Of a stretch of 21,729 bases of DNA, positions 5,036 to 19,894 are shown piece after piece. Within the stretch, counting starts at the first letter, position 1; every line of letters starts with the position of its first letter. Both the position numbers and the translations under genes were made by a program. This DNA comes from a virus, in the IMG/VR virus record IMGVR_UViG_3300047386_000085, positions 1 through 21,729 of that record; one strand, 5' to 3'. The notes beneath the pieces are model-generated. The model worked only from the letters and a program-made list of their open reading frames with translations. It was not told the DNA's origin and did not search any database.

Positions 5036-5075
5036 ATTATACCGAAGTTTAAGTAAGTTGTCAAGAAATATTTTT
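5036..5075 (-). promoter_or_regulatory. Promoter P1 (sigma-70 type) upstream of the 133-aa gene and SSB
   Basis: Read on the minus strand, TTGACA (5064-5059) and TATAAT (5041-5036) are separated by exactly 17 bases. An A-rich stretch (AAAAAAATATTTC) precedes the -35 element. It belongs to a family of six such promoters in the window. The whole element fits in the 42-base gap after the SF2 helicase stop. The -10 box ends two bases before the next ATG, leaving no room for an ordinary leader. Confidence 0.9.
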
Positions 5076-10786: not shown

Positions 10787-11064
10787 CGTCCTATATCCTT
10801 TACATTTTCACTACTGATTACTTGGTATGCACCTTTATTATAAGCAGGTGCTACTGTGAAGGAAGCATTCTCCGCATAACTGCGGTCAGGGGCTTCGCAA
10901 GTACCTACACCATCATCCGCAGATTTATAGTGAACTGTATCTCTACGATAGGTATTGGCAACCTCTAAGGGCTCAAACTTAGGAGTATAGGTCTTAGACT
11001 TCGGTAAAGGCTTGCGCTTTCTACCTGAAGCTGTATGTCGTAAACTGCCGAATGTAAGTGCCAT
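10783..11064 (-). CDS. Small basic hypothetical protein, first gene of the primase-polymerase operon
   Basis: A 93-aa protein of unknown family. The N terminus is strongly basic (RHTASGRKRKPLPKSK) and the rest is polar with little hydrophobic core, so it may be partly disordered and nucleic-acid binding. That is inference from composition. I place the start at the ATG at 11064 because AAGGAG lies eight bases upstream and promoter P2 lies 30 bases before it. A longer frame to 11106 would begin inside the promoter and has no ribosome site. Its stop overlaps the primase start by four bases. It is the only gene in this operon with a well-formed leader and SD, so it should set translation of the coupled genes behind it. 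Confidence 0.8.
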   Translation of the reverse strand: MALTFGSLRHTASGRKRKPLPKSKTYTPKFEPLEVANTYRRDTVHYKSADDGVGTCEAPDRSYAENASFTVAPAYNKGAYQVISSENVKDIGR

Positions 11065-11094
11065 ATTGCTTCTCCTTCTTGTAAATGTCCGTAT

Positions 11095-11135
11095 ATTATA
11101 CGCCATATCACATGAGAAGTCAAGAACTATTTTTA
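11095..11135 (-). promoter_or_regulatory. Promoter P2 (sigma-70 type) upstream of the 93-aa/primase/polymerase operon
   Basis: On the minus strand, TTGACT (11123-11118) and TATAAT (11100-11095) are spaced by 17 bases, with AAAAATAGTTC directly upstream of the -35. The A-rich segment overlaps the last codons of the DnaB-like gene. The spacer is the most divergent of the six promoters, and the -35 has one mismatch. It is expected to be strong but weaker than P3-P5. Confidence 0.85.
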
Positions 11136-12485
11136 AATATCATCAATTTCTTCACCAGTTTTATGGGAAGAATCTTCACGTTCTTTAGGAGTGAGTGCAG
11201 ACTCGGGGCCAATCTTTAGGCTGTCCCAATCTACTTCTGAGGTGAATGACTTCATAGAGGCTGAACGCATCTTCACACAATTTAATGTGATACAGGCATC
11301 TTCATGATCCCACGTTTCCAACGTGTAAGCGGCGTCTGCCGCATCAAGAATACCTTTAGCGAATCTAGCTTCTCCACTAGCATCTGTTTGGTAGGGTGAG
11401 AATACGGTACAATCGTACTCCTGTGCCATAGACTTCAATGCTTTACTAACTTCAATCTGCTCTGTCCAGTCATACTGTCCGCCAGTACGAGAGGGTAGAC
11501 TCGACCGCTTTACCTGATTAATATAGTCAACGATAATGACACCAACATTCAGAGGTTTGACTTTTTTGTCAAGCTCGGCACGAATTTTGGATAATGTTAA
11601 AGCTGGCTCATATACTACATCTAACTGCTGAGTCGGGAGGAGCTCATGGTTAGCTTTCAGTACATTATGCAACTTCTCAAAGTCACGATGTTCTCTATAT
11701 TCCTTCAAGCGGTCTTGTCCATCAACATAACGAGCTGTCCACCAATTAGCCACTTGTTCCCACTCAGTAACATTTAAGTTCTGAGTACGCAGACGCGCAA
11801 AAGGAATTTTAGTGGCAATTGAGCAACATCTCTGAAGGATAGATCGACTATCCATCTCAATAGTGAAATAGATAGCCGACTTACCTGAAGCGTAAACATT
11901 GTTGGCAATGTTTGCACAAATAACAGATTTACCTGCACCACGTCGTCCACCGACCATAACCAAATCTCTAGGAGAGAACTGGATTTCATGATCGTACTCA
12001 TCATTGAGTCCGAACTTCATGTAACGGGCTAAATCTTCTTCTGGCTCAAACAGTTCAATACGTTGCATACTTTCCTGCGGGTCTTCAAGATCAACCTTAT
12101 CTTCAATGTCTAAGACAATCTGATGAAGGTGGTCTACTGACTCTTGAGCATCCTCGAATGCTACAGAGTGTTCAACATAATCTTCTAGTGAGTCCAGAAT
12201 TTCTTTCTGAGTATATTCGTTTTTAAGATACTGAAGAAGCATCTCAGGGTCGGCATCGACCTCGACAGCTTCAATCGCAAAAAGTTTTTCACGAGTAGCA
12301 GAATCACGAATCTCATACTTGAGATCTTCAACTGTGGGCATTTTATGAAAGTCTTCGCAATGCTTATCAATAATCTTATAAAGACTATGATACTCACTTG
12401 GCAGATAATGCCTGTGCGTTACACTCCAGGTCTGAAAGTCCTGTAGCTCAAGCACTTGCTTTATTAGCGCAGATGCGATATTCAA
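11133..12485 (-). CDS. DnaB-like replicative DNA helicase
   Basis: The 5'-3' replicative helicase, 450 aa. The N-terminal part (1-150) is helical and acidic, as in DnaB N-terminal and linker regions. The RecA-like domain has Walker A GGRRGAGKS at 179-187, FTIEMDSRS with the catalytic-glutamate region at 207-214, Walker B VIIVDY at 316-321 and a sensor FSPYQTDASGEA near 362. The start is TTG, with GGGAGGG at an ideal distance. No upstream ATG keeps the domain, and the next in-frame ATG is about 50 codons in. No promoter is visible in the 70-base gap ahead of it. A stable hairpin lies there instead, so it is likely transcribed by readthrough from P3. Low-level expression is inferred from hairpin plus TTG. 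It lacks a primase domain. Confidence 0.92.
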   Translation of the reverse strand: MNIASALIKQVLELQDFQTWSVTHRHYLPSEYHSLYKIIDKHCEDFHKMPTVEDLKYEIRDSATREKLFAIEAVEVDADPEMLLQYLKNEYTQKEILDSLEDYVEHSVAFEDAQESVDHLHQIVLDIEDKVDLEDPQESMQRIELFEPEEDLARYMKFGLNDEYDHEIQFSPRDLVMVGGRRGAGKSVICANIANNVYASGKSAIYFTIEMDSRSILQRCCSIATKIPFARLRTQNLNVTEWEQVANWWTARYVDGQDRLKEYREHRDFEKLHNVLKANHELLPTQQLDVVYEPALTLSKIRAELDKKVKPLNVGVIIVDYINQVKRSSLPSRTGGQYDWTEQIEVSKALKSMAQEYDCTVFSPYQTDASGEARFAKGILDAADAAYTLETWDHEDACITLNCVKMRSASMKSFTSEVDWDSLKIGPESALTPKEREDSSHKTGEEIDDI

Positions 12486-12513
12486 TTATAAACCCTCCCA
12501 AGTTTAAAGATAT

Positions 12514-12537
12514 GGGCAGACCCCGAAGAGCCTGCCC
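12514..12537 (-). terminator. UUCG-tetraloop hairpin between the four-HTH gene and the helicase
   Basis: On the minus-strand RNA the arms GGGCAGGCUC and GGGUCUGCCC pair over ten positions, with two G-U wobbles that would be A-C mismatches on the other strand. A UUCG loop closed by C-G caps the stem. The following bases (AUAUCUUUAAA) are not a clean U-tract. It is therefore either a leaky terminator or a 3' mRNA-stabilising and processing structure that separates the HTH gene from the helicase gene. Confidence 0.7.
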
Positions 12538-12556
12538 GTAATAGTACTAAGTTAGA

Positions 12557-13279
12557 TTAAGCGGATGCTTTTTCTTTCTTAGCTGCGCCATCATAGTCAG
12601 AAGCGGTTAAGCCACGACGAGTTAGCATAGTCTTAACGCCACGAGCAGTTTTACCAATTGACTCAGCAATTGCTTCAACAGTCATGTCGCCGACTGAAAG
12701 GTCAGCCAAAGGATCTTCTTTAGAAGCGCCTTTAGTTACTTCTTGCTTAGGAATAGCGTTGATGTCGCCAGAACGTAACAAGCTAAGAGCTTTACCACGT
12801 ACTGAGTTTACAGAGCGACCTAGAGCTTCAGCGATAGCTTCTACGAAAGCACCGTCGTTTACCAACTGTACAAAAGTAGCTTCTTCGTCTGGGCTGTAAG
12901 TACGAACTGCTTCAACTTTAGGAGCAGGCTTAACGTGCTCTGTAAGTTCCATAGACAAGATTTTACCTTGAATAGACTTAGGAGAGTATGCGCCATCTTC
13001 GAAGATGCCTGCAATCTCTGCATAAGTGTATTGACCGCTGTTATCAGAAACAAAAGCAGCTAGAGTAGCTTCTTGAGCGTCTGTGAACGCACGGCTTGCA
13101 GATGCTGAAGCAAGTTCAACATCAAAACCCATTTTACGAAGTTTGCTAGAAACTGAACGGGTTGAAGTTTCAAGCTGTTCTGCTGCTTCTGCAACAGTAG
13201 CTTGGCTCACAGGTGATTCATCACCTACGAAATTTGTAAGAGCGTCTGTACGCTCGTCTGTCCACTTAGGAAGTGCCAT
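12557..13279 (-). CDS. Multi-repeat helix-turn-helix DNA-binding protein (T5 D5-like candidate)
   Basis: A 240-aa protein made mostly of four related HTH/Myb-like repeats: 6-53 (WTDERTDAL...RSVSSKLRKMGF), 65-113 (FTDAQEATL...KSIQGKILSM), 128-172 (YSPDEEATF...NSVRGKALSLL) and 188-226 (lacking the aromatic first helix; AIAESIGKTARGVKTMLTRRG). Each keeps the pattern AIAExLxxSxxSVxxKLxxxG. The C-terminal tail is basic (KKEKASA). It follows LigB by three bases, with GGAG eight bases before its ATG, and ends just before the UUCG hairpin. Its size and its place between ligase and replicative helicase fit T5 D5, an abundant dsDNA-binding protein involved in late transcription and early shut-off. That equivalence is inference from position and character. 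A nucleoid-coating role is the main alternative. Confidence 0.82.
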   Translation of the reverse strand: MALPKWTDERTDALTNFVGDESPVSQATVAEAAEQLETSTRSVSSKLRKMGFDVELASASASRAFTDAQEATLAAFVSDNSGQYTYAEIAGIFEDGAYSPKSIQGKILSMELTEHVKPAPKVEAVRTYSPDEEATFVQLVNDGAFVEAIAEALGRSVNSVRGKALSLLRSGDINAIPKQEVTKGASKEDPLADLSVGDMTVEAIAESIGKTARGVKTMLTRRGLTASDYDGAAKKEKASA

Positions 13280-13282
13280 GTT

Positions 13283-14032
13283 TTATTCTCCAATAAAATC
13301 TAATAAATTAGTTATGATTTCTACGCCAGATTCTCTGGCTTTCTTAGTTTTAGCGGACTCGACTCCGCTTTCGTTAACCAGTATTGTAACATCCTTTGTT
13401 AGACTAGTCTTTGTTACATATCCGAGTTCTTGTAGTTTAACATTCGCTTCCGATTTAGTTTTGAAACTATTCAGTTTACCACTAATACATACAGTACCTT
13501 TCGACTCAACGACTGCTCTAGGGCTGTCGAACCTGAAACTAAAAGGTAGAAGGCTAACATAATAAAACTCGTCCTCAATCCATGAGGTAAGATTACTACT
13601 CGCTTTATCGCCAAGACCAGCCTTACGGCACAAATCATAGTCTATTTCTTCAATGTCTTTGCAGACTCTCGATAGCTTTTCCGCGGCACTTTTGCCGATA
13701 AGCGGGATGCTGAATGCAGGTAATAACACATTCAGGGGTGCAGAGCGAGATCTCTGTAACTCATCTACTAACTTGACAGAAAGACGATCTGAAGCTAGTG
13801 CTTCGGCTATATCTTCAAAAGACAATTCATAAAGCTCCTCTAGGGAGACAATGTTGAGCTTCTTGATAGTAGCAGGACCTAAGCCCTTGATCTTTAAAGT
13901 CTTGGCAAAGTGTTCGATAAGTTTCAGAGACTTCTCTCCGCATTTGGGGTTTCTACAATACAGAAGATGATTGACATCTTCAAGAACCGAATCACAGCTT
14001 GGGCAATTCTTGGGCGGTTCGATGAATGTCAT
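13283..14032 (-). CDS. ligB: NAD+-dependent DNA ligase, C-terminal subunit (zinc finger, HhH, BRCT)
   Basis: The second half of a split LigA-type ligase, 249 aa. A four-cysteine zinc finger (C10, C13, C26, C31) is followed by helix-hairpin-helix motifs: LKIKGLGPATIKKL at about 46-59 and FSIPLIGKSAAEKL near 107-120. A BRCT domain occupies about 178-249 (GTVCISGKLNS, then TKDVTILV). These are the domains after the OB fold in cellular LigA, with no nucleotidyltransferase. It should join with the LigA subunit encoded just upstream, as in phage T5, where ligase is also made as two subunits. It has its own promoter (P3) and a strong SD (AGAGGAGA) before the ATG. The promoter gap makes separate genes, not a frameshift, the right reading. 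Confidence 0.9.
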   Translation of the reverse strand: MTFIEPPKNCPSCDSVLEDVNHLLYCRNPKCGEKSLKLIEHFAKTLKIKGLGPATIKKLNIVSLEELYELSFEDIAEALASDRLSVKLVDELQRSRSAPLNVLLPAFSIPLIGKSAAEKLSRVCKDIEEIDYDLCRKAGLGDKASSNLTSWIEDEFYYVSLLPFSFRFDSPRAVVESKGTVCISGKLNSFKTKSEANVKLQELGYVTKTSLTKDVTILVNESGVESAKTKKARESGVEIITNLLDFIGE

Positions 14033-14058
14033 GGTCTCTCCTCTGAAATTGAAATAGT

Positions 14059-14099
14059 ATTATACGCAAATTTAAGGTTTCTGTCAAGAATTATTTTTT
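14059..14099 (-). promoter_or_regulatory. Promoter P3 (consensus sigma-70) upstream of ligB and the four-HTH gene
   Basis: On the minus strand, TTGACA (14087-14082) and TATAAT (14064-14059) have a perfect 17-base spacing, preceded by AAAAAATAATTC. The spacer contains CTTAAATTTGCG, and the start of the transcript reads ACTATTTCAATTTCAG into an AGGAG ribosome site. Similar stretches occur at P4 and P5. Confidence 0.93.
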
Positions 14100-14105
14100 C
14101 ACAGG

Positions 14106-15038
14106 TCACGAAGGATTTATCCTTCTGACAATGCGAGGTATAATCTCACCAGAACGTATAACTTCTACTCTACATCCGATCTCCAGATCTAGGTCGCGTA
14201 TGTACTCAATGTTGTGCAATGTGGCTCTAGACACTGTCGCTCCGCCTATCTCAATGGGATCAAGAACCCCAACTGGACTGACTACACCACTTTTGCCTAG
14301 CTGCCACACTACATCTAAGAGAGTTGTTTCTACACCCTGCTTCTGCTCTTTGAGAGCAAACGCACCTCGTGGGTGATTAGAGGTATGACCCAGCTCTTCA
14401 AACTTGAAGTTATCTCGCAGACGATATACTATACCATCTGTGGGATATCCAGTGCAATCAAAAGAAAGTGCTGTATTGAAACCCATACGTTCCAACCCTT
14501 CAAGAGTTGCATCAAAGTTTCGATTTACAACTTTCTCTTGACCGTACGCTACGAACCACAACTCTTTAGAACGCTCAAAGAACTCGTCGTGGTCTTTCAA
14601 GTTGAGAGACCCCGCAGCGTAGTTACGAGCGTTAGGAATAGAGTCTGGAGCAACTACTTCACCAGTTATCTGTACCATTGCAGTCATACTGATTTGGTCA
14701 GGTACTAGTAAGCGCATCTTATCAGTGATGTCTCTACCTTGTATGCCATCGCCTCTGGTAAGAGCCAACTGGAGAAAACCCGCAACATACAACAGCGAAA
14801 CAGCTGCTCCGTCAAGTTTAGGAGTTTCAATACATTCTTCTACCGCCAAAGGAGCATCCGCAAGATCAAAACATTTCTTGAGGGAATACATACGATAGGT
14901 GTGCGGAACTGCATCAGTAACCTGGTACCCAACCTTGTTATACTGGTGCTTTTCTGCAAGAAGATCAAACTCGTCGTCAGTAAGTTGAGGACGACCTTCA
15001 TAGTAATCTATACAGGCTTGGTCTAAAAAATCTCGCAT
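14106..15038 (-). CDS. ligA: NAD+-dependent DNA ligase, adenylation subunit (Ia-like, NTase, OB fold)
   Basis: The catalytic half of the split ligase, 310 aa, sealing nicks with NAD+. It starts with an Ia-like helix pair (DYYEGRPQLTDDEFDLL at 11-27), which holds the NMN-binding elements. The nucleotidyltransferase follows with nucleophile K74 in ETPKLDGA, TRGDG at 94-98, GEVV at 126-129, NARNYAAGSL at 136-145, PTDGIV at 199-204 and AFALK at 226-230. Residues 243-306 are the OB fold (LGKSGVVSPVGVLDPI). The protein ends where cellular LigA would continue into the zinc finger. It starts with ATG seven bases after AGGAG, under promoter P4. Every catalytic motif is intact, so it is a working subunit, not a truncated relic. 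The Ia domain is shorter than the cellular one. Confidence 0.93.
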   Translation of the reverse strand: MRDFLDQACIDYYEGRPQLTDDEFDLLAEKHQYNKVGYQVTDAVPHTYRMYSLKKCFDLADAPLAVEECIETPKLDGAAVSLLYVAGFLQLALTRGDGIQGRDITDKMRLLVPDQISMTAMVQITGEVVAPDSIPNARNYAAGSLNLKDHDEFFERSKELWFVAYGQEKVVNRNFDATLEGLERMGFNTALSFDCTGYPTDGIVYRLRDNFKFEELGHTSNHPRGAFALKEQKQGVETTLLDVVWQLGKSGVVSPVGVLDPIEIGGATVSRATLHNIEYIRDLDLEIGCRVEVIRSGEIIPRIVRRINPS

Positions 15039-15064
15039 ATTGGTTCTCCTAAAATTGAAATACT

Positions 15065-15105
15065 ATTATACGGGATTTCAGGAACTCTGTCAAGAACTAT
15101 TTTGT
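15065..15105 (-). promoter_or_regulatory. Promoter P4 (consensus sigma-70) upstream of ligA
   Basis: On the minus strand, TTGACA (15093-15088) and TATAAT (15070-15065) have a 17-base spacing, with CAAAATAGTTC ahead of the -35. The leader AGTATTTCAATTTTAGGAG matches that of P3. The upstream part overlaps the last codons of the MptE-like gene. Confidence 0.92.
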
Positions 15106-15891
15106 TATACTTCTTTTATTTCCTGAAAGTTTCTTTTGAAGAGTGTAAGCATTCCAGCAAGTAGCAGGCTCAGGAAGATCCTCCTCAACAACAGAGTTTA
15201 GTTCATCTAAAGATCTATAAGTCATAAAGTCATTTATAGAAGCGTTGGGATTAGCAGAGTAAAAATGGATACCCCTATTTCGGCACTCTTTATTCAACCA
15301 CTTTAACCAGGCGTATATGTCTCCATACAATCTTGTATTCCTGCTTTTTTCCACATCGTTTAATATTATATCGTTATGGTAGTCGGATTTCGTATTATCT
15401 AAGTCGCAACCTACTAAGGTTATGTCTTTAAATCCCATATGTATTAAGAGATTCATGGCTACTGCCATTACATGGTTGTGCCATATAAAATGCTTAGCCC
15501 CTTTCTCAGCTCTTCTAAATATCTCGTCTCGCTTTCCTTTCTTAACATTTATAAAATGAACATTGTTCATGTTTATAGGGAATACATCTTGAAAGCCTCT
15601 ATCCTGATAACCTCCCCGGAAAAACTTCGGAAAAGCCTCAAACACAACTCGTCTGTCATAACACTTTGGATCGTCCATACCCATCCACATATCGGGGATT
15701 ACAAAAGGGTATGTGTTGTTCATACCTAACACAACCTTTCCGGGACCTCTTAGCAGGGATGTATCTACACTTTTCAAGGAAGGCCCTCCACACACTAATA
15801 TGGCTCGGGCAGAGTTAACCTCTCTGAAGAAGTTTGACAACTTCCATTCTGAACCTGTCCAATGTACCACTGAATGTGCTTGTGTCGCCAT
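15097..15891 (-). CDS. MptE/DUF115-like or GT42-like Rossmann-fold protein
   Basis: A 264-aa protein with a nucleotide-binding Rossmann start, ARAILVCGGPSLKSVD at about 28-43. GMNNTYPF (56-63) and MWMGMDDPKCY (69-78) follow, and later ITLVGCDLDN. This layout (GGPSL, then a conserved N-N, then a G-D pair) is shared by the MptE-like pyrophosphokinase/DUF115 proteins and the GT42 sialyltransferase-like fold. Phage copies often lie near genes for surface or nucleotide-sugar chemistry, but here the neighbours are PC4 and ligase. It begins in a TAATG overlap with PC4 and ends at promoter P4. Substrate cannot be read from the sequence. A nucleotide-linked transferase is the most that can be said. 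Confidence 0.6.
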   Translation of the reverse strand: MATQAHSVVHWTGSEWKLSNFFREVNSARAILVCGGPSLKSVDTSLLRGPGKVVLGMNNTYPFVIPDMWMGMDDPKCYDRRVVFEAFPKFFRGGYQDRGFQDVFPINMNNVHFINVKKGKRDEIFRRAEKGAKHFIWHNHVMAVAMNLLIHMGFKDITLVGCDLDNTKSDYHNDIILNDVEKSRNTRLYGDIYAWLKWLNKECRNRGIHFYSANPNASINDFMTYRSLDELNSVVEEDLPEPATCWNAYTLQKKLSGNKRSITK

Positions 15892-16190
15892 TACTTATAT
15901 AAGTCTCGGATTAGATCTCCGAAAGTCTCCTCTACTAATTGTTTTGATTCTGCAAGAGACAGTATCTCTACTAAACCTGCGAAAAGTTCTCTGGAATTTG
16001 TTAGATCAAGAGGCATCGCTACACCTTCTGGAGTAGGCTTCCACTCCTCGTTGAAGTCTAAGTAATACTTACGCAAGTGTATGTACTCAATATCTCGAAA
16101 AGTATTGATGGTAAGTCTTACCTGTACTTCTTTTACTTCGTCGTAGTGTATTACTCGAGAATATGCTTCAGGTGCTTGATGTAATTCCAC
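15891..16190 (-). CDS. PC4-like ssDNA-binding transcription/recombination cofactor
   Basis: A 99-aa homologue of the eukaryotic coactivator PC4, a dimeric ssDNA and duplex-melting protein. The family pattern is clear: EVQVRLTINTFRDIEYIHLR at 21-40 (strand, glycine-less hairpin and the invariant IxxR), YYLDFNEEWKPTPEGVAMPL at 42-61 (the PTxxGv motif), and a final helix at 64-78. T5 is known to encode a PC4 homologue linked to recombination-dependent replication, and this protein fits that role with the gp46/gp47 pair. The start is GTG, overlapping the upstream stop (TAGTG), with GAGGG nine bases before. The residues beyond 80 form an extra helix absent from the minimal PC4 core. The family call is from the pattern only. 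Confidence 0.78.
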   Translation of the reverse strand: MELHQAPEAYSRVIHYDEVKEVQVRLTINTFRDIEYIHLRKYYLDFNEEWKPTPEGVAMPLDLTNSRELFAGLVEILSLAESKQLVEETFGDLIRDLYK

Positions 16191-16462
16191 TACCTTCTAC
16201 CCTCGTTCTTTAAGATTGACGATAAAGGTACTACACTCGACACGTTGGCAGGGCGTAATAAACGATAAGAATCAGTATCCCAACAGAAAAATAAAAGTGT
16301 ATCTGTGGTTTCTTTTGCTCTATTCTTTTTCTTCTGTATATAAGGCGTGGAAAAATCCAAAGTACATACGTTGTACTTTAGCTTTCTTGATTGCTCACTA
16401 CGATATGTAATGATTGCGTCCCCGTACTCTGTTACGAGGTTAGCTAGTTCTTGCTTTTTCAC
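16190..16462 (-). CDS. Hypothetical 90-aa protein upstream of PC4
   Basis: A small protein of unknown family with a basic centre (SRKLKYN, then YIQKKKNRAKE), a hydrophobic strand (TLLFFCWDTD) and a basic C-terminal end (NEGRR). I choose the GTG at 16462 because AAAGGAG lies five bases upstream. The frame continues to a TTG at 16492 with no ribosome site. No consensus promoter is visible between it and the terminator on its 5' side. It may rely on readthrough or on a weak promoter that I cannot identify. Its stop overlaps the PC4 start, suggesting the two are made together. A modulator of PC4 is possible but unsupported. Confidence 0.72.
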   Translation of the reverse strand: MKKQELANLVTEYGDAIITYRSEQSRKLKYNVCTLDFSTPYIQKKKNRAKETTDTLLFFCWDTDSYRLLRPANVSSVVPLSSILKNEGRR

Positions 16463-16540
16463 TTTAGCTCCTTTGTAGTAATTCAGCAACAATTATTGTG
16501 AGGTTACATACTGTTAGGTGCTTTTGCTAGATGCAAGAAA

Positions 16541-16566
16541 GCCCCGCTAGTCGAAACTAGCGAGGC
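16541..16566 (-). terminator. Intrinsic terminator after the single-HTH gene
   Basis: On the minus strand the arms GCCTCGCTAG and CTAGCGGGGC pair over ten positions (one U-G) around a six-base loop TTTCGA, and TTTCTT follows. It begins seven bases after the stop of the single-HTH gene. The G-U pair is a mismatch on the other strand, so it acts on leftward transcripts. Confidence 0.85.
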
Positions 16567-16573
16567 GAGTATT

Positions 16574-17020
16574 TTAGCCTTCGTTGATCGCTGTGATAAC
16601 TTTGGTGAAATACTGTGATGCTTTACCAGTCAGCTTGCCGATGATTTCCTCATCAACTTCTTGACCTGCATCACCAAGTGCCGCGATAAGAGCTTCTGCA
16701 GCTGCTGCTTTAGATACTCGTGTACCACCGCCACCTTTAGAACCGCCACTAGATTTAGCAGCAGGAGTTTTCTTAACATAAACGCCAGCTTTGGTTAAGA
16801 TCATACGAACACCATTTGGTGATTCGTCTAGTTCTTCAGCAATATCTTTAACAATCTCCATGCTGGTCTCTGGAGTTGGTTCTGCTTCTTCGTACATTGA
16901 TACTGCTTGTGCTTTTTTATCGTCGTCCCAAGCCACTTTTCTTTTCCTCTTGTTTGGGTTTTTGTTACCTGGGCAATCACCCAGAGCTTTAAGTTGTTGA
17001 AGGTAGAATCTTTCCGACAT
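16574..17020 (-). CDS. Single-HTH DNA-binding protein related to the four-HTH protein
   Basis: A 148-aa protein with a basic N-terminal arm (NKNPNKRKRKVAW) and then one HTH/Myb-like unit at 31-82: WDDDKKAQAVSMY, a helix IVKDIAEELDES, and a recognition helix PNGVRMILTKAG. It keeps the same IAEEL-x-S-xxGVRxxLxxxG spacing as the repeats of the 240-aa protein. A Gly/Ser linker (89-100) joins a separate C-terminal helical domain at 101-148. The gene is a self-contained transcription unit: promoter P5 is about 30 bases upstream, AGGGG precedes the ATG, and a terminator follows the stop. That arrangement suggests high, independent expression. Candidate roles are early-gene regulator or nucleoid protein. 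Target and partner are unknown. Confidence 0.82.
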   Translation of the reverse strand: MSERFYLQQLKALGDCPGNKNPNKRKRKVAWDDDKKAQAVSMYEEAEPTPETSMEIVKDIAEELDESPNGVRMILTKAGVYVKKTPAAKSSGGSKGGGGTRVSKAAAAEALIAALGDAGQEVDEEIIGKLTGKASQYFTKVITAINEG

Positions 17021-17048
17021 TTGGTTATTCCCCTAAATTTGAAATGAT

Positions 17049-17090
17049 ATTATACGGCAATTTAAGGACTTCTGTCAAGAAATATTTTTT
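17049..17090 (-). promoter_or_regulatory. Promoter P5 (consensus sigma-70) upstream of the single-HTH gene
   Basis: On the minus strand, TTGACA (17078-17073) and TATAAT (17054-17049) are 18 bases apart, with AAAAAAATATTTC before the -35. The TGA stop of the methyltransferase is the TGA inside TTGACA. The leader ATCATTTCAAATTTAGGGG resembles those of P3 and P4. Confidence 0.91.
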
Positions 17091-17626
17091 TGATCCTGTA
17101 AATTTTTTGGTCTAACCACTACATCTAAAAACTGTCCTTCTTCTATAGTCTTGTTCTGTATGGTAAAATAGGCTTTTAATTTTTGAAGCCACCACTCAGA
17201 GCTTTCTATAATTAGGTGTGCATTGCGTCCGTCAGGTAAAACTTTTTTTGCCTTCTTCAAGGATATAGTGAATAAACCTTTTTCTAGAGTAACTCTATGT
17301 AAATCTTGTAGTACGTTATCTAGTAAGTCAGGCTCTATATGTTCTAAAACATCTATGCATACTACAAAATTATGGGGTATATTATTGTGTACTAATTTTT
17401 CATTAGCAGGCTCATAGCTAGTTACTTTTATTCCGTCTTTACGCATTGATGTTTCTAGGTAGCAACGACCTGCTCCGTAATCTAGTAGGTCTTTGTATCC
17501 GTCTTTTTTAATAATATTTGAAATATATGCCTGTATCTTCGGTGTTTTTGCTGTTGCCCCGAATTTATATTTTTTGTGGGTTTCTTTCATAGCCTCTAAA
17601 TAATTACTTGATATTAGCTCTGTCAT
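17075..17626 (-). CDS. Class I SAM-dependent methyltransferase
   Basis: A 183-aa protein with the Rossmann methyltransferase core: motif I DLLDYGAGRCYLE at 46-58, an acid at E72 (TSYEPANEK) for the SAM ribose, and motif IV-like VVCIDVLEHIEPD at 88-100. This is the signature of the Methyltransf_11/23 group, often acting on small molecules or lipids. No N-x-P-P/Y DNA-methylase tetrapeptide is present and there is no target-recognition domain, so a restriction-type DNA methylase is unlikely. It begins in an ATGA overlap with the HTH gene and ends inside the -35 of promoter P5. The substrate is not readable. Confidence 0.78.
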   Translation of the reverse strand: MTELISSNYLEAMKETHKKYKFGATAKTPKIQAYISNIIKKDGYKDLLDYGAGRCYLETSMRKDGIKVTSYEPANEKLVHNNIPHNFVVCIDVLEHIEPDLLDNVLQDLHRVTLEKGLFTISLKKAKKVLPDGRNAHLIIESSEWWLQKLKAYFTIQNKTIEEGQFLDVVVRPKNLQDQKNIS

Positions 17627-18342
17627 AATCTGTCAATCCTTACTCCATACTGTTTCAAATGTTCTAGCTTACAAAGTTCATATGCTGGAACATATGCAGA
17701 GAAACCGCCTGCTGTTACGTTTGAAAAGAAAGTATCATCGCTGTCAACCTTCTGTTTAATATATACTGCATACACAGGACACCCATACTTACTCTCATAG
17801 TCAGTGTTTGCTAGACCTGGCTTACTTGCAATATACTCTGGAGTGAGTCGTGCGTGTACTTCTACCGCGCCATGATACGACGCCGACCACGCAACCTCCC
17901 CTTCCGCATAGTCATCTGACAAGAGAGCATCCGGATAATAGTGCGACCCAAGTTTTTCTTCTTTATTCGCAGGACGCTGGGGTACGCCGACCTTTTCGAG
18001 TAATGCTCGAACAAAGGAAGGTGATCTGAAAAGGGACTTAGAAATCTCTGAAATCGTCCCGCCTTGCAGGTAGCTTTCGCAAGCCTCCGCAATTTCAGCT
18101 TGAGACGCGGGTCGACCCCGTAGCTTTTTCTTGCGTTGTGCAGTGTATGCTTTCTTTTCATGGTATTCCTCAATAATCTTATTTAGCCTAGTAGTATTGT
18201 AGGCTATATTTAGAATATCACACGCTTCCTTTTTGGTTATAGGTTTCTGAGAAGAACTGGGGTTTAGAAGTCCTATTACTTTCTCGATGTTTTGAGTCGA
18301 TAAGTTTTCGTAGTCCTTCTTCTTTACTATCTTTCGTGCCAT
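17623..18342 (-). CDS. Two-HTH regulator-like DNA-binding protein
   Basis: A 239-aa protein with a basic N terminus (ARKIVKKK). A first HTH lies at about 34-57 (ITKKEACDILNIAYNTTRL). A basic AT-hook-like linker (KKKLRGRP) at 71-78 leads to a second HTH at 79-118 (QAEIAEACESY...SEISKSLFRSPSFVRALLEKVG). Residues 131-239 are a separate C-terminal domain of unknown fold. The ATG has GGAG seven bases upstream, which fixes the start despite a 125-base overlap with the DUF3310 gene. No later ATG is available. It is followed at once by the methyltransferase. A transcription regulator is the likely role, inferred from the HTHs; the site bound is unknown. Confidence 0.75.
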   Translation of the reverse strand: MARKIVKKKDYENLSTQNIEKVIGLLNPSSSQKPITKKEACDILNIAYNTTRLNKIIEEYHEKKAYTAQRKKKLRGRPASQAEIAEACESYLQGGTISEISKSLFRSPSFVRALLEKVGVPQRPANKEEKLGSHYYPDALLSDDYAEGEVAWSASYHGAVEVHARLTPEYIASKPGLANTDYESKYGCPVYAVYIKQKVDSDDTFFSNVTAGGFSAYVPAYELCKLEHLKQYGVRIDRL

Positions 18343-18598
18343 ATTCTAACTCCAATAATAATTCGCAATAATGTATAATTTTCTTTATGTCCTCGGCACC
18401 GTTCTTAGCTTTGTGTCGAGTCGCATACTTTATGATGTTTCCTTCGATGTATCCTAAACCATTTGCGTGTATATACTCTAATGGTTGTATAGGCAGATCG
18501 TAGTGCGATCCACCTTCTTGCCGCTCTAACGGTCTTTGTTCTTCGTGATCTTCTGCTACCCACACTGGTAATTCTCCTGAAGCTGCAATGTTTTTCAT
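18218..18598 (-). CDS. DUF3310 family protein
   Basis: A 126-aa protein with the DUF3310 core: GGSHYDLPIQPLEYI at 29-43, GYIEGNIIKYATRHKAKNG at 49-67 and AEDIKKIIHYCELLLELEYG at 68-87. These small helical proteins are widespread in phages and have been called nucleotide kinase-like, but no function is established that I know of. The core ends at residue 87, and from codon 86 on the DNA is also used by the start of the next gene in another frame. The C-terminal tail (KLIDSKHRESNRTSK) is polar and may be tolerated simply because of that overlap. It starts in an ATGA overlap with the 74-aa membrane protein. Confidence 0.85.
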   Translation of the reverse strand: MKNIAASGELPVWVAEDHEEQRPLERQEGGSHYDLPIQPLEYIHANGLGYIEGNIIKYATRHKAKNGAEDIKKIIHYCELLLELEYGTKDSKEEGLRKLIDSKHRESNRTSKPQFFSETYNQKGSV

Positions 18599-18819
18599 AA
18601 AATATAATCTTTAACTAAACCACTTAATAGCGTGAAAGCCATCACTGCATTAAGAAGTATTAGTGCTTTATCTTTCCATGCGAAAGATACTACTAACCAC
18701 AGAGTCGTGCCTGTGAAACTAAAGATGAGATCATACATATGATACTCATCTCCTGAGGCTCTGAGCATTACTGCTATAATAATTACTATAGATGCTGCCC
18801 ACTTGACTACATCTATCAC
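18595..18819 (-). CDS. Small membrane protein, three predicted helices
   Basis: A 74-aa, very hydrophobic protein with segments at about 5-20 (VKWAASIVIIIAVMLR), 29-47 (YDLIFSFTGTTLWLVVSFAW) and 52-72 (ALILLNAVMAFTLLSGLV), separated by short charged turns. It starts with GTG overlapping the upstream TGA in a GTGA tetranucleotide, with a weak ribosome site, so coupling is likely. It could be a holin by size and topology, but it sits 1.4 kb downstream of the lysozyme among early-type genes. An inner-membrane protein of unknown role is the safer call. Confidence 0.72.
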   Translation of the reverse strand: MIDVVKWAASIVIIIAVMLRASGDEYHMYDLIFSFTGTTLWLVVSFAWKDKALILLNAVMAFTLLSGLVKDYIL

Positions 18820-19415
18820 TTAGCAGTAATCCGTTTCTCGTAGTCTGCATAGTCATCGCTCCACCAGGGTGGTCTTTCTCGATACTTCCACTCTGCAAAC
18901 GTACCCTTGTCGAGGTGATAATAATCACGATACGACTGGATTGGATTGTCATAGTCTTTTAACTCGTCAGGCATAGCTAGACCGAAAGTAGTGAACCCCT
19001 TGCGAGGCATATTCTCAGGCTCAGGTAGTTTATTTACTACTTGTGCAATCGACTTGTGGTCTTTACCATAGCGATAACGATACTCTTCATTCAAAGCATT
19101 ACCATAACAGTGAGTCCACTCAAAATTATCTAGTGATGAACGTACCCAGATTGTGCAAGGGTGATTGTACATCATTGGCAGATAAGGTGTGAGTGGTCGC
19201 TCTTCTGGTGGAAGATGCTTGATTTCTTTTTTCAAAGCGTTTAGATGATCTCTCTCGTCTTTCTCAAGAGCGCGTGGTATAAAGCCTAGATGCTTGTCAA
19301 CCCATATGGCTGTACATAGCAACTGTGCTACCTCAAGAGGCATCTTCACGATATGCTTGTCTACATGATACTCGGCACACTTGTCGAGATCTTTGTCAAG
19401 GTAAAATAAATTCAA
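18816..19415 (-). CDS. Conserved phage protein of unknown function
   Basis: A 199-aa protein of a family I know only from marine phages. Conserved-looking blocks are MNLFYLDKDLDKCAEYHVDK, KMPLEVAQLL, YNHPCTIWVRSSLDNFEW, ALNEEYRYRYGKDHKS and a tail with YRDYYHLDKG and W-rich RPPWWSDDYADYE. The several histidines, Tyr-Arg pairs and tryptophans suggest an enzyme acting on DNA or nucleotides. Database names such as pyrimidine-dimer glycosylase have been attached to similar proteins, but I see no DenV catalytic N terminus. The start is TTG, with GGAG seven bases upstream. The ATG at codon 25 would remove the conserved beginning. Promoter P6 lies just before it, making it the first gene of its unit. 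Confidence 0.8.
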   Translation of the reverse strand: MNLFYLDKDLDKCAEYHVDKHIVKMPLEVAQLLCTAIWVDKHLGFIPRALEKDERDHLNALKKEIKHLPPEERPLTPYLPMMYNHPCTIWVRSSLDNFEWTHCYGNALNEEYRYRYGKDHKSIAQVVNKLPEPENMPRKGFTTFGLAMPDELKDYDNPIQSYRDYYHLDKGTFAEWKYRERPPWWSDDYADYEKRITAK

Positions 19416-19442
19416 TGCTTTTCTCCGTAAATTTAGACAACT

Positions 19443-19480
19443 ATTATACTAAACTTCAAGAAAAGTGTCAAGAACTATTC
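19443..19480 (-). promoter_or_regulatory. Promoter P6 (consensus sigma-70) upstream of the 199-aa gene
   Basis: On the minus strand, TTGACA (19471-19466) and TATAAT (19448-19443) have a 17-base spacing, with GAATAGTTC before the -35. The spacer has CTTGAAGTTTAG, a variant of the element seen in P3 and P5. It starts three bases after the o-spanin stop, separating the lysis genes from the early-type operon. Confidence 0.9.
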
Positions 19481-19894
19481 TTCAACTGCTACACCAATAG
19501 CACCCGCAGGGTCGTCATTGATGGTTACGTTTCTGTAGTAAACGACTACTTCTCCTAACTGATTTATATATCTCTTGAGTTCTTGTGTGTTGTATGACAT
19601 CAGTTCGTAGTCTGCAATACTCATGGCAATAAAGACTACATCTCCACCATGTTGCTTTTTAATATCTTCTAGGAATTTTTCAAGATAGGTACGATCTTCG
19701 CCCGCTATCTTTGAGTCTGATACGACATACCATCGAGGCTCTTTCAATTCGACAGGTCGTGGTAGGGTAGGCTGGATTATATCCAGTTTGATTGGTTTAG
19801 TGACGATCTCTATTTCCCTAGCTTCCTGAGGAAAAAGAGAACAGCCACTAATTGTTAAGATTGCTAATGCGCTGAGTATCGGCTTCAATCGCAT
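19475..19894 (-). CDS. Lipoprotein, probable o-spanin
   Basis: A 139-aa outer-membrane lipoprotein. The N terminus is a lipoprotein signal (MRLKPILSALAILTISGC) with the lipobox cysteine at C18, so it is lipidated in the outer membrane. A Pro-rich stretch follows (IIQPTLPRPVELKEPRW), then a globular part with an aromatic helix (TQELKRYINQLGEVVVYYRN). It starts 47 bases inside the i-spanin gene in another frame, with AGGAGG six bases before the ATG. This is the overlapping arrangement of Rz/Rz1. It should connect with the i-spanin to fuse the two membranes at lysis. It is longer than Rz1, and the extra domain is unexplained. A longer frame to 19951 begins inside i-spanin and would hide the signal peptide, so I reject it. 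Confidence 0.8.
   Translation of the reverse strand: MRLKPILSALAILTISGCSLFPQEAREIEIVTKPIKLDIIQPTLPRPVELKEPRWYVVSDSKIAGEDRTYLEKFLEDIKKQHGGDVVFIAMSIADYELMSYNTQELKRYINQLGEVVVYYRNVTINDDPAGAIGVAVEE

Follow-up and report, generated by a model that had tools for sequence, protein, structure and literature searches.

A helix-turn-helix bead in the D5 and D3 proteins of a T5-like phage locus, and its apparent kinship with T5 A2

The window analysed here is a 21.7 kilobase (kb; 21,729 nucleotides, nt) stretch of a virus record, IMGVR_UViG_3300047386_000085 (positions 1-21,729), and it raises the question of what is encoded by two of its minus-strand genes, and whether their products are related. The two open reading frames (ORFs) are present as the initial annotation described them, at 12557-13279 (240 amino acids, aa) and 16574-17020 (148 aa). 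The explanation that fits best, to which a probability of about 0.7 is given, is that they encode orthologues of the phage T5 proteins D5 and D3, that A2, D3 and D5 form one family built on the same helix-turn-helix (HTH) bead, and that D5 is a multi-bead binder of duplex DNA acting in the switch from early to late expression.

The 240 aa protein matched phrog_323 ('D5-like') at E 1.3e-45 over residues 2-237, and the D5 of Vibrio phage VCPH is 51.3% identical to it across all 240 aa; identity to the nearest phage records is ~50%. It can be aligned end to end with T5 D5 (T5.118; phrog_323), with third helices that are near-identical by eye, although T5 D5 carries inserts of 4 and 6 residues in its first bead which the window protein does not have. 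A tblastn search with D5 found a single place covering at least 80% of the protein in 895 of 898 matching phage records. The 148 aa protein matched phrog_1725 (E 1.3e-30, residues 27-147), and like T5 D3 (T5.113; phrog_1725) it is encoded between D2 and the ligase genes and combines a single HTH with a helical C-terminal part; its N-terminus is longer by ~24 residues, and the loop that follows the first helix of the HTH is shorter. As judged by profile search and the T5 record (AY543070), the minus-strand gene order parallels that of T5: D2, D3, a phrog_3696 protein, a PC4-like protein, ligA, ligB, D5 and a D6-type DnaB helicase. In T5, as in the window, D5 immediately follows ligB and precedes the D6 helicase, the order ligA-ligB-D5-D6 helicase-primase-polymerase that goes with the T5 D5 family was found here, and the order around D5 in VCPH is the same. 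On sequence grounds the window is the early replication and recombination region of a T5-like phage, with the 240 aa protein as the orthologue of T5 D5 and the 148 aa protein as that of T5 D3. The likeness to T5 D5 and the position beside ligase and helicase had been proposed in the initial annotation and are upheld.

The same annotation regarded the 148 aa protein as an extra one, and this was not borne out. D5 was found in 216 IMG/VR loci, of which 137 reach 4.8 kb upstream of it and could be tested (many are near each other and do not count as independent cases); D3 was present in 133 of these 137, the remaining four (L117, L118, L128 and L133) having no D3 at E<=1e-8, and D2 was found somewhere in the locus in 130. 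Neither gene is new or extra; each is an ordinary representative of its family, D5 or D3.

The predicted D5 consists of four HTH beads in a row, joined by linkers. The AlphaFold2 model, made from an alignment of 59 sequences from the window and the IMG/VR loci, had a mean predicted local distance difference test score (pLDDT) of 89.1, a predicted template modelling score (pTM) of 0.38 and four confident beads, namely bead 1 at residues 6-53 (13121-13264, minus strand, as for all features below; helices 8-18, 26-35 and 40-49), bead 2 at 65-113 (12941-13087; helices 67-79, 86-96 and 100-109), bead 3 at 128-172 (12764-12898; helices 130-141, 146-153 and 157-169) and bead 4 at 188-226 (12602-12718; helices 201-208 and 212-222). 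Bead 4 is without a proper first helix, and has only a turn at 195-197. The four repeats delimited in the initial annotation, and its reading of them as a tandem HTH array, fit these helices. When the D5 family profile was compared with itself, residues 63-224 aligned on 4-172, which places beads 2-4 onto beads 1-3 (hhalign probability 97.2, E 3.2e-11; hhalign E-values refer to one comparison each). Taken singly, five of the six bead pairs matched at 65-95% (94.5 for beads 2 and 3, 84.8 for beads 2 and 1), and in a column-shuffle control covering these five pairs the observed score was reached in 0 of 200 shuffles each.

D3 (16574-17020) has one HTH at about residues 28-84 (16769-16939; helices 33-45, 53-64 and 68-78) and a three-helix C-terminal part in the AlphaFold2 model (pLDDT 77.4; HTH at 33-78). 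Its closest bead in D5 is bead 1, on which residues 22-95 aligned with a probability of 96 and E 3.8e-9, followed by bead 4 (94%) and bead 3 (82%); the claim that this protein matches the repeats of D5 holds for beads 1, 4 and 3 but not for bead 2 (2.7%). Shuffling reached the observed scores for beads 1, 4, 3 and 2 in 0, 0, 0 and 1 of 200 trials, respectively. A hidden Markov model (HMM) of the D3 HTH matched 57 of 60 D5 proteins at E<0.01 (best 1.6e-13), and the reverse search, D5 HMM against D3, was weaker, with 17 of 76 at E<0.01 and 72 of 76 at E<1. These kinship searches were run on a Pfam-sized scale (Z 24,736) with HMMER filters off, and Pfam scans with filters on; in the latter no Pfam HTH family matched more than one of 74 D3 members. 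D3 and D5 appear to be relatives through this module. Repeats that are not HTH units, or an absence of profile similarity between the two proteins, would have spoken against the initial annotation, and neither was found. A 306 aa protein at the D3 place of VCPH (L083, 6331-7251) was considered as a D3 with extra beads and rejected, as it is a D3 behind a long N-terminal part. That part is of ~170 residues, is homing-endonuclease-associated-like by eye, and aligns to neither the window nor the T5 D3.

In structure comparison D5 bead 3 resembled the GcrA DNA-binding domain (VIA Z 7.2, 48 aligned, root-mean-square deviation (rmsd) 3.4), D5 bead 1 resembled Pit-1, of Myb/homeodomain-type folds (Z 6.6, 51 aligned, rmsd 2.7), and the predicted D3 model contains a trihelical HTH closest to TnpE (Z 6.3, 50 aligned, rmsd 1.7); values of Z below 8 may reflect a common arrangement only. 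Bead 4 matched Pfam Sigma70_r4_2 (PF08281) at 32.3 bits, above the cutoff of 25.7, over only 26 residues (196-221), and 57 of 59 D5 relatives did so at E<=0.01; this reflects the shared HTH and not membership of the sigma factors. GcrA (PF07750) reached 17.3 bits on the window D5, below its cutoff of 26.9, and was found at E<=0.01 in five of 59 members, and Myb (PF00249) in four of 59 (best 0.00067), the window protein not among them. In sequence searches against solved structures the leading matches of the D5 profile, to 1y66 ('engrailed homeodomain') at E 0.0012 and to 8vd6 ('CAP repeat') at E 0.0033, spanned no more than one bead, and D3 found nothing below E 0.13. Foldseek with the whole D5 chain gave nothing at E<=0.001 (best 0.012); the fold searches barely covered bead 4 and the D3 C-terminal domain. 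Among the best 60 of 914 records matched by D5 at E<=10, only chance-level matches, such as Streptococcus phage Javan583 (E 1) and Pantoea phage Kyle (E 5), stood below the T5-like phages.

The bead appears to be shared by T5 A2 (T5.006). In a comparison using an alignment of ten A2 sequences, A2 residues 6-109 aligned on D3 26-131 (probability 97.9, E 5.6e-13), and a single PHROG profile, phrog_1725, takes both T5 A2 (E 4.3e-52) and T5 D3 (E 6.8e-50). The window D3 has the profile match over both HTH and C-terminal part that goes with an A2/D3 family, and as judged by these profiles D3 and A2 are relatives over most of their length. The two differ in setting, A2 being a pre-early protein involved in DNA transfer, whose gene neighbours A1 and dmp in the terminal repeat; the window showed no A2. 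Against the single beads of D5, A2 gave 77% for bead 1, 51% for bead 3 and <8% for beads 2 and 4.

A further set of relatives consists of free-standing single-bead proteins. The D5 profile found one full D5 in each of 11 chosen T5-like IMG/VR records, and extra single-bead ORFs in six of them; eight fetched stretches contained ten stop-to-stop frames (106-142 aa), each with a single HTH followed by a helical tail, and all five members searched had the PHROG of D5 or D3 as their best match. A scan of viral contigs confirmed at least 573 stretches carrying this A2-like family (carriers include loci L225-L312 and records G006, G007, G009, G015, G021, G022, G029 and G031). Two members had no tblastn match among 50,697 phage records at E 1e-3 or 1e-2, and T5 A2, which matched 890 of the 50,697, is taken to be their cultured relative (probability 97.9, E 5.2e-13 against the family). 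Of 88 loci that carry the family, 64 have a homologue of T5 dmp, the pre-early neighbour of A1 and A2; searches of the same flanks with A1 and further T5 proteins found no match. Nine of 22 records chosen for carrying the family have a full D5, including all seven of at least 70 kb. Using the family profile on 23 chosen records, two pairs of which look near-identical, 11 had at least four free-standing copies and none more than five, counted without matches inside D5 and without three at the D3 place (G009, G010 and G012). The same profile found A2 in T5 (both terminal-repeat copies) and, weakly, D5; in VCPH it found the 'A2-A3' gene, and in G002 and Aeromonas phage AhSzq-1 only D5.

As an HMM, again with filters off, the free-standing family matched all 60 D5 proteins, 53 of 76 D3 and nine of ten A2, but none of 85 D2 or 71 PC4 proteins. 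These patterns suggest that A2, D3 and D5 are one family built on the same bead, used singly or as a chain of four. D2 (17623-18342; 239 aa; phrog_3611, E 1.5e-38) carries a more distant HTH at about residues 72-124 (17971-18129). Its N-terminal part matched the D3 HTH with a probability of 93 and D2 matched the free-standing family at 87%, whereas A2 against D2 gave 0.4%; at E<0.01 the D2 HMM matched one of 76 D3, 13 of 76 free-standing, none of 60 D5 and none of ten A2 proteins. D2 is a possible, distant relative of the D3 module only. It is called a 'helicase' in PHROG (phrog_3611) and in the legend of a preprint (PMC13405049). The nine Pfam families with matches at E<=0.01 among 42 D2 members include no helicase, and are led by HTH_58 (20) and HTH_23 (11).

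Several results weigh against parts of this reading. The pTM of 0.38 means that the mutual orientation of the D5 beads is not fixed by the model; bead 2 did not match bead 4 (3.7%), nor did the D3 HTH match bead 2 as noted above; and A2 was weak against the whole of D5 (31.6%), its HMM matching only two of 60 D5 proteins and the D5 HMM none of ten A2. As the direct scores between A2 and D5 are weak, the link between them runs through D3 and the free-standing family. Finally, a D5 nonsense change reported in one T5 escape mutant (PMC13405049) fits badly with a D5 essential for replication, although other genes were changed in it too. The resemblance of D5 and D3 could also be the generic likeness of unrelated HTHs, as column shuffles do not exclude it and as 37 Pfam families, many of them HTH, were matched by some of the 59 D5 members at E<=0.01. 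It is nevertheless the least probable of the alternatives considered here, because the D3 HTH model recognises nearly all D5 proteins, the free-standing model takes D5, D3 and A2 but neither D2 nor PC4, Pfam HTH families are almost absent from D3, and a pattern scan of genome contigs from 84,980 species for the free-standing family yielded 116 candidate stretches and confirmed five loci, each on a contig of 3.4-10.9 kb.

The conservation of D5 points to the use of the whole chain. The 59-sequence alignment has 35 invariant columns, 21 of which lie in the four third (recognition) helices, which make up 44 of the 240 positions (6.4 expected, P 1.3e-9). In the window protein these helices contain 13 lysine or arginine residues and no aspartate or glutamate, and the net charge of the whole protein is -9. 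The recognition helix is intact in every bead, an argument for the use of all four. The T5 GenBank record (AY543070) describes D5 as DNA-binding, as required for replication and late transcription, and as having a part in the shutoff of expression. D5 is most likely a multivalent binder of double-stranded DNA in the early-to-late switch. The target of the shutoff we take to be the early genes. D5 would probably grip duplex phage DNA through several recognition helices at once, perhaps all four, with a footprint of perhaps 25-35 bp per monomer; it would occupy early DNA, possibly including promoters, and this occupancy would help to silence early transcription and to activate late transcription and replication. 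The mechanism by which T5 switches between gene classes, all of which are read by the host sigma-70 polymerase, is stated to be unknown (PMC7472727), and D5 as four copies of the D3/A2 module would make bead-by-bead mutants a direct test of it.

The transcription signals bear on how both genes are expressed. D3 has its own consensus early promoter (17049-17078; TTGACA-18-TATAAT, 12/12 in the sigma-70 boxes). D5 begins 3 nt past ligB (13283-14032; NAD DNA ligase subunit B, phrog_3498 E 2.7e-59, in the place of T5 ligB), the first gene of its unit, with no minus-strand promoter listed between them, and would rely on the ligB promoter (14059-14087; TTGACA-17-TATAAT, 12/12) or on read-through. A consensus promoter for each gene, as first annotated, is hence correct for D3, and for D5 only by way of ligB. 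Terminator-like hairpins, which had been noted as bounding the genes, do follow D3 (16541-16566; 11-pair stem and T-rich tail) and D5 (12514-12537; 10-pair stem); ten such sites were found against 6.2 +/- 2.7 in shuffles. The window is not richer in promoter-like sites overall (20 against 18.1 +/- 4.9 in shuffles) and only perfect boxes stand out, four of them on the minus strand within 11,000-19,600 (at 19471, 17078, 15093 and 14087). Outside the T5-close loci (L086-L115) and the named records, 149 related loci contain 353 perfect boxes, all on the D5-coding strand, and the perfect promoters of relatives share AAAAATA-n-TTC before the -35 box and ATAT after the -10 box. The upstream part of this extension is consistent with UP elements and with the AT-rich -43 region described for a T5-like phage (PMC3326045). 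The long repeated operator suggested in the initial annotation was sought by repeat search in the window and by word counts in T5 and the window, without success; apart from the promoter family only weak words emerged. Direct repeats in the window form at least 60 families, and of the 20 largest only the promoter family (55 nt, six copies) exceeds two copies. In T5 no 7-10-mer was clearly enriched (z at most 3.4), longer words being AT-rich or -10-like. The extended early promoter, AAAAATA-n-TTC-TTGACA-N17-TATAATATAT, is found on the minus strand of the window at 5064, 11123, 14087, 15093, 17078 and 19471. In relatives the C before -35 hardly varies across 182 distinct promoters; it is absent from nine T5 promoters compared.

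Two other accounts of D5 binding have to be weighed. D5 might be a non-specific, histone-like coat along phage DNA, its four beads giving only cooperativity and affinity, as would agree with the lack of a candidate operator word in T5 and, among the 20 repeat families examined in the window, of any but the promoters above two copies. In the T5-like phage phiR2-01, D5 belongs to the major proteins associated with the virion, but according to the same source it has not been identified in the T5 virion (PMC8624392). Near-invariant recognition helices would exceed the need of a backbone-only binder. The net charge of 60 D5 proteins has a median of -7 (range -15 to +9), whereas histone-like proteins are basic, and we consider the coat unlikely. 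Conversely, D5 could repress in a sequence-specific way, with the early promoter box itself as its operator. The promoter family is the only one present in more than two copies among the 20 families compared, relatives conserve sequence on both sides of the boxes, bead 4 resembles sigma-70 region 4, and the T5 record gives D5 a role in shutoff. However, UP elements and RNA polymerase explain the extra conservation at least as well, the early discriminator ATATT has been linked to gpT5.026 and not to D5 (PMC7472727), and the nine T5 promoters compared are without TTC, yet the recognition helices of T5 D5 are nearly the same by eye, which leaves such a repressor as improbable as the coat.

It is more doubtful still that D3 is an accessory decoy, competing with D5 or entering mixed filaments with it, as could be imagined from their common HTH and from the changes in both D3 and D5 of T5 escape mutants (PMC13405049). 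D3 is near-universal in the tested loci and therefore not an accessory competitor, its kinship with A2 is no weaker than that with D5, and T5 D3 co-expressed with retron-Kva2 caused no growth arrest and only a mild effect on colony shape, whereas the toxicity of D5 was raised by the retron (PMC13405049).

The reading of D5, D3 and A2 as one bead family in which D5 binds duplex DNA also bears on that 2026 preprint (PMC13405049), in which T5 escapers of retron-Kva2 were changed in D2, D3 and D5, and D5 was named as the trigger. Escaper T5.1 carries D5 G53D, W74*, V149I and G232D with D2 E76Q, escaper T5.2 carries D3 E30Q and G85D, and polymerase and terminase genes were altered too. By eye, the D5 sites lie in the third helix of bead 1 (G53), at the start of bead 2 (W74), in the first helix of bead 3 (V149) and just past the third helix of bead 4 (G232), and the D3 sites in a loop (E30) and a glycine-rich linker (G85), neither in the HTH helices. 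The nonsense change W74* comes from a plaque-forming escaper, though the T5 record has D5 as required for replication. D5 was toxic alone and more so with retron-Kva2, and D2 was toxic alone; D5 was predicted to engage the multicopy single-stranded DNA (msDNA) of the retron via an HTH, and remodelled the retron complex in mass photometry. The preprint proposes T5 D5 as a mimic, on msDNA, of the winged-helix protein of this type IX retron, which is a host defence component, unlike the phage D5. The words 'tandem' and 'paralog' are absent from the portion of its text consulted. A one-module view puts the D2, D3 and D5 escape changes in one frame and raises the question of which bead the type IX retron senses.

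This one-module reading of A2, D3, D5 and perhaps D2, and the multiplication of the module in environmental T5-like phages, may be new. Neither the tandem array nor the A2-D3-D5 kinship was reported in the titles and abstract openings of the literature searched, the classic T5 D5 papers being outside its scope; a D5 homologue has been named an XRE-type HTH (PMC3326045). More tentatively, and less likely than not, one HTH module might run successive stages of T5-like infection (A2, D3, perhaps D2, D5 and the free-standing proteins), with competition or handover on the same DNA governing when DNA enters, when early shutoff occurs and when late genes are expressed; its fold would be what type IX retrons detect.

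Beyond the D6 helicase the window continues with primase, polymerase, helicase, D12/D13-type subunits and a D15-type nuclease, named by place and by eye. Profiles assigned ligA, ligB, D5 and the helicase, the last also by tblastn, and the primase and polymerase rest on place and inspection only. Between D3 and D2 lies a methyltransferase-like gene (17075-17626; phrog_24759), where T5 has a small unknown gene. A 264 aa MptE-like or sialyltransferase-like protein with weak profile matches (15097-15891) is situated between the PC4-like gene and ligA, and was found at E<=1e-3 only in the window, among the window and 221 loci searched. The PC4-like neighbour was tried as a relative of D5 and rejected, there being no similarity in profile comparison or HMM searches. 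It encodes a PC4-type single-stranded DNA-binding coactivator domain (15891-16190; PF02229, 35.5 bits, cutoff 25.0), lies near the T5.114/T5.115 place, and is present in 136 of the 137 testable loci.

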